Positions 2,665 to 30,118 of a stretch of 35,376 nt of DNA are shown piece after piece. How positions within the stretch are numbered: the first letter of the stretch is position 1; every line of letters starts with the position of its first letter. The notes below the pieces were generated by a model. That model made no database searches. It saw nothing but the letters and a program-made list of their open reading frames with translations, and was not told where the DNA came from. This stretch comes from a virus, in the IMG/VR virus record IMGVR_UViG_3300043425_000570, positions 1 through 35,376 of that record; one strand, written 5' to 3'. A program made the position numbers and the translations under genes.

Positions 2665-2737
2665 GCCTCCATAGCTCATCTGGTAGAGCGACGCACTTGT
2701 AATGCGTAGGTGACGGGTTCAAGTCCTGTTGGAGGCT
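2665..2737 (+). tRNA. tRNA-Thr (anticodon UGU)
   Basis: Acceptor GCCTCCA pairs with TGGAGGC (2730-2736), with discriminator T. D stem GCTC/GAGC, anticodon stem ACGCA/TGCGT around loop CTTGTAA, and T loop TTCAAGT. It has 73 bases. Confidence 0.95.
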
Positions 2738-2752
2738 CTCAGAAGGGGATTT

Positions 2753-3439
2753 ATGGAAAAGCCAGCAATAAGTACACAGCAAGCTAATAACTTTAATATT
2801 TGGTATGAAACAGAAGATCCTAACTTTATTGAAATCTCTATGAAATCCAATATTCCAAGAAATTGGCTATCTTATCAGAACATATTGATTGGCAGACATA
2901 AAGACTCTATCATTAAACCAATCAATAGGTATGTTGAAAGGCTTGTCCCATCACCAGAGCTAGTAAGTATTAAAGATAATATAGTTAGGCTTCGCCAGGG
3001 AAACCATGCAGAAATATTTTTATTAGAAAGGGATGATGGGTCATTCTACAACGTGGATAGGCCCTGGATGCGTCAATACTACAATACCTCGCAATCTGGG
3101 TACGATACTCCCAATGGATGCTTTCCAGGAGCTTATAAGTTCTATGTTCCTTGGATATTAGATGAGTCAGCTTATGTAAGTATAGAGCCTGTAGAGGATA
3201 GCCCTTTTTATGTATATCCACAAGCTATGAATTGTCATCCTATAGAAAAAAGTTTAGAATATCTGCATCCGTTCTTTGTTCCATTTCATTTTAAAAGGCT
3301 AGGTGATCATATGGTAACGGAAAAATTTGGCAAAATAAAAAGACAGTCCCCAATGTTTGACATGGTTTTTTCTGCAACTGATATAATGATAGATAGGATT
3401 AAGGAATTTTATGAAAAAGAAGAGCCATCAAATAATTAA
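2753..3439 (+). CDS. Hypothetical protein, first gene of the modification operon
   Basis: A 228-residue soluble protein. ATG 2753 is chosen because AGAAGGGGA lies just before it and an earlier in-frame start would begin inside tRNA-Thr. I do not recognise the family with confidence. Its C-terminal half (a VSIEPVEDSPF segment, then VPFHFKR and KFGKIKRQSPMFDMVF) has the same order of elements as the two proteins encoded next, where the parallel piece reads KGTPLxQxIPFxR, so it may be a diverged third member. It overlaps the next gene by 29 bases, which implies translational coupling. Confidence 0.7.
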   Translation: MEKPAISTQQANNFNIWYETEDPNFIEISMKSNIPRNWLSYQNILIGRHKDSIIKPINRYVERLVPSPELVSIKDNIVRLRQGNHAEIFLLERDDGSFYNVDRPWMRQYYNTSQSGYDTPNGCFPGAYKFYVPWILDESAYVSIEPVEDSPFYVYPQAMNCHPIEKSLEYLHPFFVPFHFKRLGDHMVTEKFGKIKRQSPMFDMVFSATDIMIDRIKEFYEKEEPSNN

Positions 3440-5799: not shown

Positions 5800-6399
5800 A
5801 TGCACAGAATTCACATAATTGATAATTTTATTGACCCAGAGGATGCAGCAATCCTAATTGAGGAACAGTCTCGCCCATCTGAGATAAACCCTTATCCAGA
5901 ATACTATAAGGAGCGTTTTGGTGGCACAGCCTTCCCATACAATAAGCGTGTTATGGATCTTTTAGTTAAGTATGGTAGAAAAGCTAATGATGTTCACAAA
6001 GAGGTTAATGGCTTCGTTAACCCTATTTATGTATTTAAAGCATTTGGGTCTGTCTGGGCTCCAGGAACAAAAGGCAGCCTTCACATAGATGCTCAAGGAC
6101 CAGAGCCATTTATAGAGTTTAGTACAATTATCTATTTAAATAGCCCAGACGAATACGAAGGTGGAGTTATCTATTTCCCAAATCAGGATTTTGAGTATAA
6201 GCCAAGACAATATTCAGCTGTGTTTTTCCCCTCAGCTGGGTCTGAATATATTCATGGAATAACTACTGTAACTTCTGGCATGAGAAATACAGCATTATAT
6301 ATGCACACAAGCTTGCCAAACCACGCTGATCCAGACTTCCACTCACAGGAGGAAACTGCTGTCTGGGCAGCAAGAGAAAATAAGAATGTGAGTAAATAA
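5800..6399 (+). CDS. 2OG-Fe(II) oxygenase, prolyl 4-hydroxylase-like, copy 1
   Basis: 199 residues with the double-stranded beta-helix signature: His95 and Asp97 (LHIDAQ), distal His152 (YIHGITTV) and Arg162 (GMRNT), which binds the 2-oxoglutarate carboxylate. FSTIIYLN (near 107-114) and GGVIYFPNQ lie at the usual places. Such enzymes use O2 and 2-oxoglutarate to hydroxylate a protein side chain or small molecule; substrate prediction is not possible from sequence. AGGAG precedes ATG 5800. It is followed within 1 base by a second oxygenase of only moderate similarity. Confidence in the fold is high and in the substrate low. Confidence 0.88.
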   Translation: MHRIHIIDNFIDPEDAAILIEEQSRPSEINPYPEYYKERFGGTAFPYNKRVMDLLVKYGRKANDVHKEVNGFVNPIYVFKAFGSVWAPGTKGSLHIDAQGPEPFIEFSTIIYLNSPDEYEGGVIYFPNQDFEYKPRQYSAVFFPSAGSEYIHGITTVTSGMRNTALYMHTSLPNHADPDFHSQEETAVWAARENKNVSK

Positions 6400-6400
6400 G

Positions 6401-7048
6401 ATGGATTATAGGGTATTGGATCTTGGTCTTGTTTACTATAAGAATGTTATTCAGGAACCACAACTTTTAATAGATGCGATAGAAGAACTTAATGTAAGAT
6501 TCTTGGCAAAAGAGCATGTGAATGATGCACGAACTGTGGTAAGAGACTGGACTCCTTGGTCATATGGAGAGATGATATTTAATTATCAAAAGTTTTTCCC
6601 AGAGGCAAAAGATATTTCAGACACAGACTACTATGCAAAAGAAATGAAGCATATTGCCAATGTTCTTTATGGCTCATTAGATAGGGCATTTGCTCATTAT
6701 TCGCAGCAGCTTTATCCATTTGCTGGCAAAAATATTAAGACCAGAGAACAGAGTATACATCTTTTGAAGTATGGTGTTGGTGGCCATCTACCAGCACATC
6801 AAGATCAGGGTATTAGCTCTAGAGTGCTTTCTACCGTTATGTATTTGAATGATGACTATCTGGGCGGAGAGATCGAGTTCAGGCAGTCTGGAGTCAAAAT
6901 TAAGCCAGAAGCTGGAAGCATTATATTTTTCCCATCAAACTTCTTGTATGTCCATGAAGTTTATCCAATTACAGAAGGATTTAGGTACTCGATGCCACAC
7001 TGGTACCACAATATGTATAACCCTATTAATTCGAATGGGAACGAATGA
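6401..7048 (+). CDS. 2OG-Fe(II) oxygenase, prolyl 4-hydroxylase-like, copy 2
   Basis: 215 residues. The iron facial triad is His133, Asp135 (AHQDQG) and His185 (YVHEVYPI), with Arg195 (GFRYSM) as the 2OG anchor. The strand STVMYLNDDYLGGEIEF and the SIIFFPSNF turn are typical of P4H proteins. It most resembles the reverse-strand copy at 15384-16094 (shared DDYxGGELEF-like block, KIKPxAG, YPVT/YPIT). The start follows the previous stop by one base and its end overlaps the carbamoyltransferase start by 4 bases, so the three genes are translationally coupled. The likely role is hydroxylation of a side chain used by the neighbouring transferases; that is inference. Confidence 0.88.
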   Translation: MDYRVLDLGLVYYKNVIQEPQLLIDAIEELNVRFLAKEHVNDARTVVRDWTPWSYGEMIFNYQKFFPEAKDISDTDYYAKEMKHIANVLYGSLDRAFAHYSQQLYPFAGKNIKTREQSIHLLKYGVGGHLPAHQDQGISSRVLSTVMYLNDDYLGGEIEFRQSGVKIKPEAGSIIFFPSNFLYVHEVYPITEGFRYSMPHWYHNMYNPINSNGNE

Positions 7049-8457
7049 AGATTCTAGGCTTTAATGAGACATCTCATGACGCAGCCATGTCTTTAATTGA
7101 CGATAATGGAAATATCTTGTTTGCTGGTCATGCAGAAAGATATAGCAAAAGCAAGAATGACTGGTACACTAATGGTAATCTTTTGGATGATCTTGTCAAA
7201 TACGGAAGCCCAGACAAAATAGCCTATTACGAAAAGCCTTACCTCAAGAAGCTTAGGTTGTTGCTGGGTGGGTACGCAGATTGGAAGCCTAATGTCAAAT
7301 ACGACCAGTCTTTTAGGCATCACCATTCTCATGCAGCAGCAGGGTACTATACCAGTCCATTTAGAGATGCTGTAATTGTAGTCCTTGATGCTATCGGTGA
7401 GTTCACAACAAGTTCTGTTTGGATCGGTGATGGTGACAAAATAACTCTGCATAAAAAATGGAATTATCCATTTAGCTATGGCCTATTCTATTCGGCATTT
7501 ACAGATCTCATTGGTCTCAAGGCTAACGAAGAAGAGTACATCATGATGGGCATGGCTGCTTATGGTGACCCAGACCTATACTATGAAAAGGTTGAGGAGT
7601 ATTTCCCAGCAGTTTACAAGCAGAAATATAACTTTCACAAAGGTATCTATGACTGGGGACAGGACATTACAGCAAATGATAAATTCCATATAGCCGCTGC
7701 TGTGCAAAGGGTATACGAAGATAGGCTGTGGGATTTTATGTACATAGCCAGACAAGAATTAGATAGTTCAAACCTAGTGTTCATGGGTGGCTGTGCACTT
7801 AACAGTAAAGCTAATACTATGCTGTGGGACATATTCCCAGATGTATGGATTATGCCTAATCCAGGAGACGCAGGAAGCTCTCTAGGAGCTGCTGCAGCTA
7901 TGCATGGCAAGCACCTAAATTGGCAAGGTCCATATCTAGGCCACGATCTCGGCGGAGAATACCCAGTAGATAAAATCTTTAATGAAATTATGACAAAAAA
8001 GATTGCAGCAGTAGCCACTGGAAGAGCAGAATTTGGTCCAAGAGCCCTAGGAAATAGGAGTATTCTAGCTGACCCACGTGACCCAGATATAAAGAATAAA
8101 GTTAATAAGATAAAGAAGCGTGAAGAGTTTAGACCATTTGCTCCAGTAGTTATGGAAGAATATGCTTCAGAATGGTTTGACATGCACTATGCAAGCCCTT
8201 ATATGCAGTACACGCCTAAGTGCCTAAAGCCAGAGCTTATCCCGTCTGTTGTTCACTATGATGGAACTTCCAGGGTACAGACAGTAAATGCTAATCAGCA
8301 CCCAGGGCTATACGCACTACTAAAAAAGTTTTATGAAGAGACTGGAGTGCCAATATTACTGAATACTAGCCTTAACATTAAGGGTCAGCCATTATTAAAT
8401 GACGAAGAAGACATTAACAGGTGGCAGAAGATGTATGGACAGGATATAATTAGATAA
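7045..8457 (+). CDS. O-carbamoyltransferase (NodU/CmcH family)
   Basis: 470 residues. N-terminal MKILGFNETSHDAAMSLID is the ASKHA-fold opening of this family, and HHHSHAAAGY (near 93-102) gives the conserved histidines of the Kae1-like domain that binds metal and carbamoyl-adenylate. GGCALNSKAN, PGDAGSSLGAAA and, in the C-terminal YrdC-like-substituting domain, GPRALGNRSILADP follow in the normal order. The reaction is transfer of a carbamoyl group from carbamoyl phosphate, with ATP, to a hydroxyl of a sugar or antibiotic. It is shorter than most NodU proteins (usually above 550), mainly at the C-terminus. Here it probably decorates a glycan or a hydroxylated group made by its neighbours. Confidence 0.88.
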   Translation: MKILGFNETSHDAAMSLIDDNGNILFAGHAERYSKSKNDWYTNGNLLDDLVKYGSPDKIAYYEKPYLKKLRLLLGGYADWKPNVKYDQSFRHHHSHAAAGYYTSPFRDAVIVVLDAIGEFTTSSVWIGDGDKITLHKKWNYPFSYGLFYSAFTDLIGLKANEEEYIMMGMAAYGDPDLYYEKVEEYFPAVYKQKYNFHKGIYDWGQDITANDKFHIAAAVQRVYEDRLWDFMYIARQELDSSNLVFMGGCALNSKANTMLWDIFPDVWIMPNPGDAGSSLGAAAAMHGKHLNWQGPYLGHDLGGEYPVDKIFNEIMTKKIAAVATGRAEFGPRALGNRSILADPRDPDIKNKVNKIKKREEFRPFAPVVMEEYASEWFDMHYASPYMQYTPKCLKPELIPSVVHYDGTSRVQTVNANQHPGLYALLKKFYEETGVPILLNTSLNIKGQPLLNDEEDINRWQKMYGQDIIR

Positions 8458-8459
8458 TT

Positions 8460-9410
8460 ATGGTAAATAAAGATAAAACAATTTTTATAACTATTCCAGC
8501 ATATGAAGATCCGCTGTTATTGCCAACAATTAAGGGTGCACTAGATAACGCTTTAAATCCAGATAGATTGTTTTTTTGTATTGGCATGCAGTATGCTGAG
8601 CTTCCAGATATCTCTCCATATATAAACAATCCAAACTTCAAATTTTTATTCTATGAGGTTAGCAAAAGACCAGGAGTTTATTGGATAAGAAGAGAAATGG
8701 CAGAGCAGCACTCTGGCCAAGACTATTTCCTAATGCTAGACTCCCACATGACATTCTCTAAAAATTGGGATGCAAAGATTATAAATGATTATGAGGACCT
8801 TGTTCGGAGACACGGACAAAGAACTATTATGTCCACATCTTTGTCTCCGCAGCCAGCCGATACTTATGAAGATAACACCATAACTCTTAAGACTTGCTGG
8901 AAGGTAAACTGGGGATTTGAGCCAAAAAGCATAGAGAGAACCGTTATCCCTGGATATATTCATGCCCCATGGGATGGAGAAAGATACCAAAAAACCTTAT
9001 ACTCCTGCAGCCATTTTTTCTTTACAAATAAAGACTATCTGTCGGACGTTGGATTTCACCAAACAATACGCTCATACTCAGAAGAGTATACGATTGCAGT
9101 AACAACGTTTTTGTCTGGATGGGACTACTATCGTTTGCCAGAGTTTGCACATCTTGGGCACAACGATAGCCCAACGGCAAGAGCTATATATAAAAAAGAT
9201 AGATATACTTTGGCTGAAGGCAAGAGGTACCAAGCAATATTTGAAACACCAGAGGAAAAGCTAGAAATTGAAAAATTTGTTTTGCTTGATAACTCTAGTA
9301 TTTTTAAGGTAAAGAACCAGAGACGATCAATTGAGGACTTCTATGAAGAGGGTGGGGAAGATCTAAAAAATGCCAGAGACAAGTTCCTAGAAATATTCGG
9401 TTTAAAATGA
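8460..9410 (+). CDS. Polypeptide GlcNAc-transferase-like glycosyltransferase (Skp1 GnT1 family)
   Basis: 316 residues and the clearest member of the PF11397-type family in the window. IFITIPAYEDPLLLPTI (8-24) opens the Rossmann-like fold, LFFCIGMQY follows, RPGVYWIRREMAE (70-82) is the conserved GPxxAR-like segment, and YFLMLDSHMTFSKNWD (89-104) carries the DSH metal site. In eukaryotes this family adds GlcNAc to hydroxyproline of Skp1; related genes occur in phages. It is encoded two bases after the carbamoyltransferase and overlaps the RmlB-like gene, with P4H-like genes in the same operon. The donor sugar is unknown. Confidence 0.85.
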   Translation: MVNKDKTIFITIPAYEDPLLLPTIKGALDNALNPDRLFFCIGMQYAELPDISPYINNPNFKFLFYEVSKRPGVYWIRREMAEQHSGQDYFLMLDSHMTFSKNWDAKIINDYEDLVRRHGQRTIMSTSLSPQPADTYEDNTITLKTCWKVNWGFEPKSIERTVIPGYIHAPWDGERYQKTLYSCSHFFFTNKDYLSDVGFHQTIRSYSEEYTIAVTTFLSGWDYYRLPEFAHLGHNDSPTARAIYKKDRYTLAEGKRYQAIFETPEEKLEIEKFVLLDNSSIFKVKNQRRSIEDFYEEGGEDLKNARDKFLEIFGLK

Positions 9411-16738: not shown

Positions 16739-17644
16739 TTAGCATGACCAACCTCTTTTATCAAACTCTGCTTTAAATGACATTGCCCAGTATTCATTTA
16801 CCAGAATTCCACCATGCCCATCTCTTCTAGAGATATCAAATTTATCCATTTTGCCATCTGGCCTTTTAGATTTTATAAACTCAAACAAGCCCTCCTGTGA
16901 CAATGGGATATAGTTTTTAGACACCTTCGATATCTCATAGTTCTTATTTTCTTCATAATCCCAGGATGACCAAATCATTTTAGTACCTATAGCCTCACAA
17001 TATTTTTCAAATAACTTCCAGCTAATAGCAAAATCTACAAATGATCTACGATGTTCTTGTTTTGTCAATACCTCTTCTTTAAAGTTTTCTGTTGGCATTT
17101 CAATGCCACCAGTTTGCCTCTTTTCGGGATCTGAATTATTTGGATATCTTTGAACATATAAAAACTTATTATTTTCGTTATCCCACTCAAAGAATCTGCC
17201 TATGTTTGGAAGCAAAATAAATAGATATGAGGGGACGCCATACTTTTCTACGTATACCATAAAGTTTGTAATCACTTTTTGCCATCCAAAACCAGCTCTT
17301 GCAATGCTATAAAAACCTAAGTCTTTGCCCAGCGTAGACAATAGGACTTTTGTCCATACCGTATCTATTGGAGCCCCCACCCCTTCGCTTTCTGAACAGC
17401 CAGCAAATAAGATGTGTGGGCCGTTGTGCTTATCAGTAAAATTATCACATCTAAAAAAGTCTTTATTGTACTCGTAAAGCACGTTGCCGTCGTCATAAGC
17501 TACCTCGATTGGCAACTTTGTATATACCCTGTCTGGCTCTGGCCCATTAGGATCACTTTTCAACCAAGTCCTATCGAAATCATTAAAAAATACATCATCT
17601 ATCGATCCAGAAATGTTTTTAAATATTAACTCATTATCTTTCAT
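16739..17644 (-). CDS. SGNH/GDSL-hydrolase-like protein, copy 2
   Basis: 301 residues. HILFAGCSESEGVG (77-90) has the nucleophile Ser84 in the same setting as copy 1 (HILFSGCSVTYGTG); FYSIARAGFGWQKV aligns with its FNLAMEGNN block; RRDGHGG near 273-279 supplies candidate Asp275 and His277. The whole order of blocks matches the protein at 10411-11238, so these are homologues on opposite strands. Block III has Gly-Trp where SGNH enzymes have Asn, so the family link is tentative. It starts within the stop of the upstream methyltransferase gene (ATGA overlap). Confidence 0.6.
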   Translation of the reverse strand: MKDNELIFKNISGSIDDVFFNDFDRTWLKSDPNGPEPDRVYTKLPIEVAYDDGNVLYEYNKDFFRCDNFTDKHNGPHILFAGCSESEGVGAPIDTVWTKVLLSTLGKDLGFYSIARAGFGWQKVITNFMVYVEKYGVPSYLFILLPNIGRFFEWDNENNKFLYVQRYPNNSDPEKRQTGGIEMPTENFKEEVLTKQEHRRSFVDFAISWKLFEKYCEAIGTKMIWSSWDYEENKNYEISKVSKNYIPLSQEGLFEFIKSKRPDGKMDKFDISRRDGHGGILVNEYWAMSFKAEFDKRGWSC

Positions 17645-18360
17645 TCGAAAATCTTTCTAAGGTATATGTCGTAGAATCCTAGCGGATGTAATGCTAGGGC
17701 ATCCACAACCCAATTTTTATTTCTGTCTAAAAATTCATTTACTGTCTGAAATGTTCCATATGCAGTTTCTTCAATGATCCCGTCAAAAATAGTGTAGTCG
17801 TTTAAACCAATTATACCATTTACAGGAACCAGATCTTGAGCGGACTTCAGGATTTCTCTAGTAAGAATTCTATCGTTAGACAGGTCTATATATATAAAGT
17901 CATATTCAGATTTGAGATTCTTAATAATCTTATTAGCTTCACCTTTTAAAGTTTTAACTCGGGGATGCCATGAGAAAAGGTCCTTGACATAATCTTCGTG
18001 TGTTTCTGCAGTATACAGTAGTTCATGCTTCATACCGTCACAGCGACATTCACCAAATTTTCTCCAAGACCAGCACTTCAGATCTTGGTTGTACCAATCA
18101 ATTAGGTCTGCGGAATAGGCCTCCGTCTCTTTAATAAACATATTGGCAGAATAGCCCCAAGCAACCCCTAGTTCTAAGTATCTAATTCCTTTTGGTAATT
18201 GCTTTGAGTAAGACTCTCTCGATGAAAAAATCTTAGCATGGTCAAGCTGTGCTTGAGCAATAGCTGGGCTATTCTCGACACTGTCTAAATTATCAAACTT
18301 TTCAAAGCTATCATAAGGCAACTCTGGCCTTGTCCATTTTGGCATATTCAATTTTAACAT
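17641..18360 (-). CDS. Class I SAM-dependent methyltransferase
   Basis: 239 residues from the ATG at 18360 (an in-frame TTG lies two codons earlier). IRYLELGVAWGYSANMF near 57-73 is motif I (ExGxxxG), YSADLIDW places the acidic residue of motif II, YDFIYIDLS is motif IV and GIIGLNDYT follows. It resembles the Methyltransf_24 group, which often modifies sugars or small metabolites. It probably methylates a hydroxyl on the glycan assembled by the neighbouring genes. Translationally coupled to the SGNH-like gene. No clear promoter or Shine-Dalgarno sequence found upstream. Confidence 0.75.
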   Translation of the reverse strand: MLKLNMPKWTRPELPYDSFEKFDNLDSVENSPAIAQAQLDHAKIFSSRESYSKQLPKGIRYLELGVAWGYSANMFIKETEAYSADLIDWYNQDLKCWSWRKFGECRCDGMKHELLYTAETHEDYVKDLFSWHPRVKTLKGEANKIIKNLKSEYDFIYIDLSNDRILTREILKSAQDLVPVNGIIGLNDYTIFDGIIEETAYGTFQTVNEFLDRNKNWVVDALALHPLGFYDIYLRKIFE

Positions 18361-18371
18361 AAACAAAACGT

Positions 18372-28211: not shown

Positions 28212-28240
28212 TTGACATCGGTCACTGATAGTGATATACT
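28212..28240 (+). promoter_or_regulatory. Consensus promoter before 28283
   Basis: TTGACA (28212-28217), 17 bases, TATACT (28235-28240) also preceded by TG-A. The leader of about 36 bases carries TTAGGAG before ATG 28283. Confidence 0.85.
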
Positions 28241-28282
28241 TCTAAGTATAAAGACCCACTAGAGAACTATTAGGAGAACATA

Positions 28283-28531
28283 ATGGCTAGCGAATTTAAA
28301 GATAAAGTGCTGAACTATGTAGAGAACTACAAGCTAAAGCGTCCATGTATTGCCTGCAACCAAATGCTGCACTCAAGTCAGCTAGATCCACTGGATGGGA
28401 CAGACGTAGACAAAATTGTTAAATCTGTTACTGATAAAGAAACGTTCGAAAAGTCTAAGCTAAAGATTGCACAGCTAAAGTTTATTTGTGCTAACTGTGG
28501 CAGACTAAAAAAGTTTAAAGAATCTAGATAA
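28283..28531 (+). CDS. Small zinc-finger protein, degenerate HNH-like
   Basis: 82 residues. CIACNQMLHSSQLD near 22-35 and FICANCGRLKKF near 68-79 give two CxxC pairs as in HNH nucleases, but the catalytic DH and the CH after the last Cys are missing (LD and CG). It may be a DNA- or RNA-binding relative without cleavage. It precedes tRNA-Arg by 8 bases and has a consensus promoter that should also serve the tRNA. Confidence 0.65.
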   Translation: MASEFKDKVLNYVENYKLKRPCIACNQMLHSSQLDPLDGTDVDKIVKSVTDKETFEKSKLKIAQLKFICANCGRLKKFKESR

Positions 28532-28539
28532 TCTTCTAG

Positions 28540-28612
28540 CCCTCCATAGCTCAGTGGATAGAGCGTCGGACTTCTAATCCGTGCGTCGTAGGTTCGATCC
28601 CTACTGGGGGGA
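28540..28612 (+). tRNA. tRNA-Arg (anticodon UCU)
   Basis: Acceptor CCCTCCA pairs with TGGGGGG (28605-28611, one G-U pair), with discriminator A. D stem GCTC/GAGC, anticodon arm CGGA-CTTCTAA-TCCG, T arm GTAGG-TTCGATC-CCTAC. It reads AGA, frequent in the neighbouring genes. Confidence 0.95.
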
Positions 28613-28616
28613 CTTG

Positions 28617-28625
28617 TGATATACT
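28617..28625 (+). promoter_or_regulatory. Extended -10 promoter for leaderless gene 28632
   Basis: TG-A-TATACT (28617-28625), six bases, then ATG 28632. It lies just five bases after tRNA-Arg. No Shine-Dalgarno sequence. Confidence 0.7.
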
Positions 28626-28631
28626 TCTAGG

Positions 28632-29327
28632 ATGAGGCTTGGAAATTTTATTGTTTGTGGGAACCACGTGGGTAATCCCAGAGACGTACCGCTAAGAACA
28701 CTAAAAGCAATAGAAGAAGTATCCTATGTTGTTTGTGACAATGCCGAAATTTTTATAAAAGATATATTTGACTATCATGGGCTAGACCCCAATAAGATAT
28801 TGATTGATTCTGTTGAGCATAATTCTGAAAAAATACTAAAAATTCTAGATATTTTAAAGTCTGGCGAAGATGTAGTATTTATTTGCGATAATGGAATGCC
28901 TGGATTTGCTGATTATGGTAATGACTTAGTAAGAACTGTAAGAGATAAAGGAGTTAATGTTGTTATTATTCCTGGTCCAGATGTTGTGGGAACCTCTCTT
29001 GCTGCCTCTGGATTGTCTAGCGGTGGACCAGTAATCTTTGAGGCATTTATGGGCAAGCCAGAGAGCTCAGTAGTTGACAGTATACATAAATTTTCTAAAA
29101 TAGAGGGTTTGCTTGTATTAATAGACTTTCCAGACAAGATGGTTGATCTAATTACATTGTGCGGAGAAATTATTGGTTATGAGAATCAGGCTACGTTTTG
29201 CAGAAAAGCATCCCTAGATGATCAGACAATTTTTTCTGGCACAATAGCTGAAGTATGTGACTTTATGAAAAAAGAAGAAACTCTTGGCTTCTCATCTATT
29301 GTTGTAAAGACAAATGGACTTCGATGA
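28632..29327 (+). CDS. RsmI-like tetrapyrrole-methylase-fold methyltransferase
   Basis: 231 residues. HVGNPRDVPLRTLKAIEEV (12-30) parallels the PIGNLxDITxRAxxxL opening of RsmI; GMPGFADYGNDLV (88-100) parallels GTPxISDPGxxLV; IPGPD (113-117) and AASGL (124-128) are the remaining SAM-site motifs, with FEAFMGKP close to the RsmI FxGFLP. RsmI makes the 2'-O-methyl group of C1402 in the 16S rRNA decoding centre. GMPG for GTPA-type residues and a shorter C-terminus indicate a divergent member, so another substrate is possible. Leaderless, with its own promoter. Confidence 0.78.
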   Translation: MRLGNFIVCGNHVGNPRDVPLRTLKAIEEVSYVVCDNAEIFIKDIFDYHGLDPNKILIDSVEHNSEKILKILDILKSGEDVVFICDNGMPGFADYGNDLVRTVRDKGVNVVIIPGPDVVGTSLAASGLSSGGPVIFEAFMGKPESSVVDSIHKFSKIEGLLVLIDFPDKMVDLITLCGEIIGYENQATFCRKASLDDQTIFSGTIAEVCDFMKKEETLGFSSIVVKTNGLR

Positions 29328-29342: not shown

Positions 29343-29894
29343 ATGACAATTAAGATAATTCACAATTTTTTAACTAGCAAAGAGTCAGACAAGATTATTG
29401 ACTTTATCAATACTAACCAGAACGGCTTTGTCCATAACGAGGGTAGTCGTAGATTTTTATTACGCTTCGGCCATGATGACGAGATGCCAGGCCAATCAGT
29501 TAAGGATATGTCAGTGGTATCGTCCATAAAAGAAGATCTTGTGGATATCTTTAAAAGAGTCTCTTCCATGATCCAAGACGAAGTTTATTTAACTTCTTGG
29601 TTTTTGTCAAAACAGTATCCTACTGGAAAGCTTTTTCCACATTTTGACGGACAAGATGGTGGACCAAATAGCCAGCTAGACTACACAGCAATGCTATATC
29701 TAAATACCCTAGACAATAATGGCACAATATTTTTCCCAGACGCTGGTTTTGGACTTACCCCACAAGCTGGTGATCTAGTTATTTTTAAGTCTAAAAAGGA
29801 CATTCACGAGGTTTTAGAGGTAAAACAAGACAGATACTCTATTAACCTCTGGTTTACAAAAGACAAAAAATTTGAATTTTCTGACTTGAATTAG
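29343..29894 (+). CDS. 2OG-Fe(II) oxygenase, prolyl 4-hydroxylase-like, copy 4
   Basis: 183 residues. IIHNFLTSKESDKIIDFI is the usual P4H N-terminus. Iron ligands are His100 and Asp102 (PHFDGQ) and His155 (DIHEVLEV); Arg164 anchors 2-oxoglutarate. YTAMLYLNTLDNNGTIFFP and TPQAGDLVIF complete the jelly-roll. It is the most distant of the four copies and is transcribed alone from an almost leaderless promoter. The substrate is unknown. Confidence 0.88.
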   Translation: MTIKIIHNFLTSKESDKIIDFINTNQNGFVHNEGSRRFLLRFGHDDEMPGQSVKDMSVVSSIKEDLVDIFKRVSSMIQDEVYLTSWFLSKQYPTGKLFPHFDGQDGGPNSQLDYTAMLYLNTLDNNGTIFFPDAGFGLTPQAGDLVIFKSKKDIHEVLEVKQDRYSINLWFTKDKKFEFSDLN

Positions 29895-29929: not shown

Positions 29930-30118
29930 ATGAATTGTCCAATATGCAACAAAGAGTTGGTAAGAGTAGTTTATGGCTACCCAACACCAACAATGATCCA
30001 GAGAGCAAGGAATGAGGAGATTGCTCTTGGTGGATTAGATAACCAGGGGTATGATCAGTACTGCTATGGTTGCAACGATACCGTACCGCCAACTATTTGG
30101 CCAGAACTTTCTGAATAA
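29930..30118 (+). CDS. Small zinc-ribbon protein
   Basis: 62 residues. CPICNKELVRVVYGYPTP (3-20) and, after a helix with EIALGG, YCYGCNDTVPP (44-54) form two CxxC pairs, a zinc ribbon. Proteins with this exact layout (CPxC, YGxP, GG, CxxC) are common in phages and bacteria as hypotheticals. The function is unknown. Predicted leaderless. Confidence 0.7.
   Translation: MNCPICNKELVRVVYGYPTPTMIQRARNEEIALGGLDNQGYDQYCYGCNDTVPPTIWPELSE

Follow-up and report, generated by a model that had tools for sequence, protein, structure and literature searches.

The window, by which we mean the whole stretch of DNA analysed, is a 35,376-bp virus record from IMG/VR. An open reading frame on its plus strand (28632–29327, ATG to TGA) encodes a protein of 231 amino acids, P0001, which profile searches, phmmer and a predicted AlphaFold2 fold assign to the RsmI-like methyltransferases of the tetrapyrrole-methylase fold; the gene is termed TPM. 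It occupies a variable cargo slot whose left edge is formed by tRNA-Arg(TCT), called by ARAGORN at 28540–28613 (+) and ending 18 bp upstream of TPM, and whose right edge is a small conserved Cys-rich protein (29930–30118, +). The second gene of the slot begins 15 bp downstream of TPM and encodes a P4H-like 2OG-Fe(II) oxygenase (29343–29894, +; PF13640, E = 1.2e-11). To the left of the tRNA, an 82-amino-acid HNH/zinc-finger-like protein (28283–28531, +; phrog_3106, E = 6.2e-5) is conserved at the slot edge, with homologues in genome G005 and locus L008. The same tRNA-Arg(TCT) borders the corresponding slot in L008, where a Stealth-like gene and other genes are found instead of TPM and the oxygenase; because the content of the slot differs in this way, the TPM slot is regarded as movable cargo.

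An extended −10-like element, TGATATACT, read by eye at 28617–28625 (+), stands 6 bp before the ATG of TPM. Hexamers of the −10 type peak 5–9 bp before start codons in the window and in genomes G006 and G119, a spacing that suggests that the mRNA of TPM is leaderless and that such transcripts are numerous in the lineage. Two copies of the 14-mer GTGATATACTTCTA are present in the window, at 28231–28244 and 28617–28630; the first copy is accompanied by TTGACA at 28212–28217, 17 bp before TATACT, and looks by eye like a strong sigma-70-like promoter. Genomes of the lineage carry 5–12 tRNAs each, and a tRNA lies within 80 bp of TPM in 9 of 47 copies, whereas 37 of 423 other genes have one as close (p = 0.035, a value that ignores ancestry). 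Such proximity would fit either a role in RNA or the use of a tRNA edge as insertion site. The tRNA-adjacent copies are those of the window and of loci L293, L306, L318, L320, L322, L329, L331 and L334.

The open reading frame is confirmed as a real gene, far from a chance match. P0001 carries the motifs GNPRD (residues 14–18), GMPGFADYG (88–96), IPGPD (113–117) and SGL (126–128), and its score against PF00590 (TP_methylase; 64.3 bits, E = 1.9e-17) is above the cut-off of 27.8. The best NCBI family is TIGR00096 (RsmI; E = 1.1e-21), but the score of 77.5 bits is less than half of the equivalog cut-off of 167.9. The closest solved sequence found by phmmer is E. coli RsmI (5hw4, E = 2.7e-15), and all 46 members of sequence set A4 match RsmI models. 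P0001 stays below the cut-offs for corrin and porphyrin methylases (25.7 bits against 258 for NF004455, 13 against 259.65 for TIGR01465), and diphthine synthase (Dph5) is absent from its NCBIfam matches. The borosin-type peptide alpha-N-methyltransferase dbOphM gives a weak profile match (E = 0.013, residues 2–119); P0001 stops right after the fold and therefore has no fused borosin-type core peptide.

The AlphaFold2 model of P0001, built from a 46-sequence alignment, has a pLDDT of 91.3. Its nearest fold is that of E. coli RsmI (Z 26.0, 2.1 Å over 223 residues), followed by a second RsmI structure (Z 25.9) and by 3kwp (Z 25.5); the next subfamily is represented by CbiL (Z 19.2), while the best Dph5 structure reaches Z 17.2. 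With this distance between RsmI and the next subfamily, no other tetrapyrrole methylase matches the model better, and the predicted fold agrees with the RsmI-type assignment that an earlier inspection of the letters (the sequence-only reading) had drawn from the order of motifs.

The same reading had taken the gene to be phage-encoded, and its surroundings bear this out. Many genes of the window stand in the order seen in two phage genomes of 107 and 110 kb, both of which lack the TPM gene, and with this synteny the window is not a stray host fragment. The portal protein of the collinear genomes is about 47% identical to its counterparts in Yaboi, Mandalore and similar Streptomyces phages, so that the group is taken as actinophage-like. 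A portal search matched 15 of 34 records at 53–100% identity, including G005 and G006, which are TPM-negative; TPM records that gave no portal match may be fragments. The 12 TPM-positive genomes checked, each >75 kb, all belong to a single Streptomyces-phage-like portal lineage and hold one to three TPM copies each, and homologues of the same clade sit in contigs of about 75–123 kb that carry the lineage portal. Contamination of the contig by a fragment of host rsmI would have a parallel in matches from the phage collection, where rsmI stands beside host-type genes wherever the surroundings were read, but the synteny of the window and the homologues inside portal-bearing contigs refute it, and we give it next to no weight.

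Relatives were reached through phages that share the endonuclease of the window, from which a viral alignment was made and used for scanning. Four records among these phages hold divergent TPM homologues (three distinct sequences), and the scan with the viral alignment yielded 55 loci; many have two copies in the locus, with up to three per genome. Two divergent copies lie within about 3 kb of each other in, for example, L285, L288, L292, L293 and L303, and genomes G111 and G116 have three copies each. A single-sequence scan of viral contigs gave no TPM homologues and a DNA pattern for GMPGFADYG gave no match. Three loci from a search with an RsmI-dominated alignment were rejected, their rsmI being full-length or among host-type genes.

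A tree of 43 distinct viral proteins and 28 cellular RsmIs places all of the viral proteins on one branch (support 100/99, stem 1.18), apart from the RsmIs. The root of this tree is unreliable, such that nesting within RsmI and a sister relationship to it are indistinguishable, and the branch of P0001 is long and joined to other long branches, which makes its exact place unsure. A phylogeny, which had been proposed as a check, supports a viral clade as such. Values of dN/dS range from 0.025 to 0.27 in 12 pairs of TPM relatives, which are under strong purifying selection. This viral clade had not previously been collected, and the searches of isolated phages gave no member of it. No PHROG profile matches P0001 or the clade, and tblastn against isolate phages and plasmids gives, among the matches listed, only proteins of <34% identity. 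Those isolate-phage matches that were opened prove to be rsmI of a host chromosome or contigs that are labelled as phage but carry host-type genes; H1, H3, H7, H16 and H32, whose surroundings were read, are host-type rsmI loci. A literature search on phage RsmI or tetrapyrrole methylases found no such report among the papers listed, and the earlier remark that no phage RsmI is established stands.

Residues are numbered here as in E. coli RsmI, in which Asp100 and Ala124 are vital for AdoMet binding (PMC5053481). Conservation was taken from 81 RsmI proteins, namely that of E. coli, 77 encoded by bacterial genomes and three by contigs of the virus collection. At a threshold of at least 85% conservation they define 60 positions, of which individual RsmIs keep 49–60 and P0001 keeps 25. 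Alignment of 43 viral sequences with 78 RsmIs shows that nearly all viral members retain G22, N23, D26, G94, D100, P101, G102, P120 and G121 (43/43 for G94, 42/43 for each of D100, P120 and G121). P0001 keeps the equivalent of D100 (D94) and has valine (V118) at the equivalent of A124, a position that is variable within the viral clade. Other positions are lost. Residues 44–47 are EDTR or EDSR in each of the 78 RsmIs, whereas no listed viral motif has either sequence and 13 read EREE; R47, present in 78/78 RsmIs, is mostly E or D in the viral clade and most often E. Likewise, A93 is replaced by E or D in 40 of 43 viral sequences and E197 by N or D in 39 of 43, K200 is kept in only seven and is M, T or L in most, and E227, invariant in the 78 cellular RsmIs, is gone. 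Arg174, which touches the rRNA backbone in a published RsmI docking model (PMC5053481), is E in 23 of 43, while R190, T199 and E203 are often retained. In P0001 itself, DNAE takes the place of EDTR, R174 is replaced by K and K200 by L, and R196 is kept; with basic residues at 174 and 196 its loss of positive charge is partial. The mean pI is 5.2 for the viral proteins and 6.0 for RsmI, with 4.7 for P0001. A missing C-terminal extension was dropped as an argument against RsmI because several cellular RsmIs are equally short. With the AdoMet pocket kept and RsmI-invariant residues lost, the clade reads at the sequence level as RsmI-derived and not as ordinary RsmI. Action on 16S C1402, which had been suggested from the motifs, is unsupported given that residues invariant in 78 RsmIs are lost clade-wide, and because RsmI-defining features such as the equivalog score and the invariant positions fail, TPM is not filed as RsmI.

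The window also encodes a set of putative tailoring enzymes. Two P4H-like 2OG oxygenases (5800–6399 and 6401–7048, together 5800–7048, +) are followed by a NodU-type carbamoyltransferase (7045–8457, +; PF16861, E = 3.9e-54; phrog_1601) and by a GlcNAc-type glycosyltransferase (8460–9410, +; E = 1.1e-15) of PF11397, a family that presumably includes hydroxyproline GlcNAc-transferases; the run as a whole (5800–9410) resembles a hydroxylation–glycosylation–carbamoylation cassette. A Methyltransf_24-type methyltransferase (17641–18366, −; PF13578, E = 2.2e-5, just under the cut-off) belongs to the same set, and its protein clusters with neighbours of TPM. A protein of the c16 family (2729–3439, +; E = 4e-79) tracks the presence of TPM. 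Members of this family, of about 220 amino acids and with no Pfam match, lie directly 3′ of TPM in L318, L320, L322, L331 and L334.

Co-occurrence was tabulated in 21 genomes >75 kb with the lineage portal, 12 with TPM and 9 without. The 2OGb family is found in 12/12 of the former and 1/9 of the latter (Fisher p = 4e-5, ignoring ancestry), c4 in 12/12 and 2/9, NodU in 10/12 and 1/9, Methyltransf_24 (MT24) in 10/12 and 0/9, and c16 in 11/12 and 0/9; 2OGa genes are common without TPM too (6/9), and Hsp20 and DUF6065 show no association with TPM in the 21 genomes. The enzymes that TPM copies have as neighbours, besides sharing genomes with them, are 2OG oxygenases, a NodU carbamoyltransferase and class-I methyltransferases. 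2OGb adjoins TPM 14 times and occurs elsewhere in the loci six times; it was called an oxygenase by eye from its H.D...H pattern, the example tested having no Pfam match, and c4 (SGNH-like) and ‘Sulfo’ (sulfotransferase-like) were also named by eye, with examples tested that lack a supporting Pfam match. NodU, c4, MT24 and 2OGa are present in the window and 2OGb is absent from this fragment, while its relatives G005 and G006 have neither TPM nor the tailoring set. The portal tree contains only three independent TPM contrasts, too few for significance, with the window as an informal fourth, and the statistical claim of co-occurrence is toned down for that reason. The sequence-only reading had also seen a functional set in TPM and rtcB, which does not hold: RtcB is encoded in 0/32 other TPM-bearing records and in 0/12 TPM-positive against 2/9 TPM-negative genomes, and the two near-complete relatives with RtcB carry no TPM gene, so that a module of RtcB and TPM is rejected. 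Ten IMG/VR loci, on nine contigs, encode an RtcB 91–94% identical to that of the window, and a further locus encodes one with 70% identity. Among 23 genomes tabulated, RtcB and ThyX are confined to the window and its close relatives G005 and G006 (RtcB also occurs in G004).

We propose that TPM is an O-methyltransferase of class III (tetrapyrrole-methylase fold) that depends on SAM and is either a descendant of bacterial RsmI or its sister, and that one lineage of 100–125 kb phages would keep it as an accessory gene. Its chemistry, which in RsmI places a methyl group on a ribose hydroxyl, may have moved to another substrate. The most likely one would be a hydroxyl, on a sugar or a protein, that arises through the phage's own 2OG hydroxylases, glycosyltransferases, carbamoyltransferase and methyltransferases; such tailoring would probably decorate virion proteins or glycans, a virion-protein target being a guess. 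TPM is likely to be catalytically active, and we are fairly confident that it no longer methylates the 2′-OH of 16S C1402. The complete proposal, an active SAM O-methyltransferase retargeted from C1402, is put forward tentatively, at somewhat less than an even chance; glycan or protein tailoring is the most likely new role, with gene association as its evidence. A more elaborate version, in which an RsmI turned non-ribosomal decorates virion proteins or glycans together with phage enzymes and has been duplicated up to three times for different sites, is more doubtful still. Counting against tailoring, RNA is to our knowledge the only substrate known for RsmI, the nearest relative.

The retargeted tailoring enzyme is nonetheless ranked above a 2′-O-methyltransferase acting at another RNA site, its main rival; the site could be in a tRNA of phage or host or at a different nucleotide of rRNA, where it might for example shield RNA from ribonucleases that attack through the 2′-OH. 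This somewhat unlikely alternative draws on the fact that the nearest fold and sequence are those of an RNA 2′-O-methyltransferase, on the tRNAs that each phage genome carries and on the position of TPM beside them; yet the adjacency is weak, its statistic ignores ancestry, RtcB does not travel with TPM, and in most of the clade the cationic R47, K200 and often R174 and R196 have given way to acidic or neutral residues. Methylation of C1402 itself during infection, by an RsmI whose substrate surface has diverged but remains equivalent, is ranked lower and is improbable. P0001 finds its best match, in profile and in structure, in RsmI, an enzyme that works close to the ribosomal P site; every A4 member matches RsmI models too, and the AdoMet residue D100 is retained; however, the TIGR00096 score is too low, the whole clade has lost EDTR and further positions that do not vary among RsmIs of many phyla, and up to three divergent copies per phage would be odd for a single site. 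In addition, all 81 genomes of one actinobacterial order, assumed here as a possible host group, have a single RsmI-type gene of their own, whose open frame spans at least about 280 codons. The replacement of A124 by valine in P0001 and its variability in the clade, together with the long branch of P0001, could point to a catalytically dead or AdoMet-binding regulatory relic, given that E. coli RsmI with the A124L substitution no longer bound AdoMet (PMC5053481), but strong purifying selection in the relatives, near-invariant AdoMet-pocket positions and a confident, complete predicted fold make such a relic highly improbable.

The viral clade offers a natural experiment in substrate change of a class III methyltransferase. 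If TPM acts on RNA, it would add a rare phage-encoded rRNA or tRNA methylase; if it does not, an enzyme that once worked on RNA would have been recruited, unusually, to viral decoration. In both cases the label RsmI would be misleading, and there are clear sequences in the clade for testing. RsmI (YraL, the 16S C1402 2′-O-methyltransferase; TIGR00096/COG0313; E. coli structures 5hw4 and 9pzg) shares with P0001 the class III two-domain topology and the AdoMet-pocket motifs GN..D, D.G.P...D.G and PG. P0001 differs from it in being only 21–23% identical, more acidic and part of a separate viral clade, and in lacking EDTR, RELTK..E, E170, E227 and the C-terminal extension, which is also short in some Bacteroidota and other RsmIs. 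CbiF, CbiL, CysG, NirE and diphthine synthase have the superfamily fold of P0001 (Z 16.8–19.2), with scores clearly weaker than that of RsmI. Among viral structure models in BFVD, the only strong match is A0A6J5P470 from an uncultured Caudovirales phage (TM 0.85, E 2.1e-19), a protein of 237 amino acids that is 21% identical to P0001 and bears the automatic name ‘COG0313 Predicted methyltransferases’. Phages can target 16S rRNA, as shown by M.EcoPA8orf6770P, a methyltransferase carried by an Stx prophage and reported to modify 16S rRNA within 30S subunits (PMC10810198); it is of a predicted DNA-adenine-methyltransferase type, works with a second subunit and is set apart from RsmI by its description.
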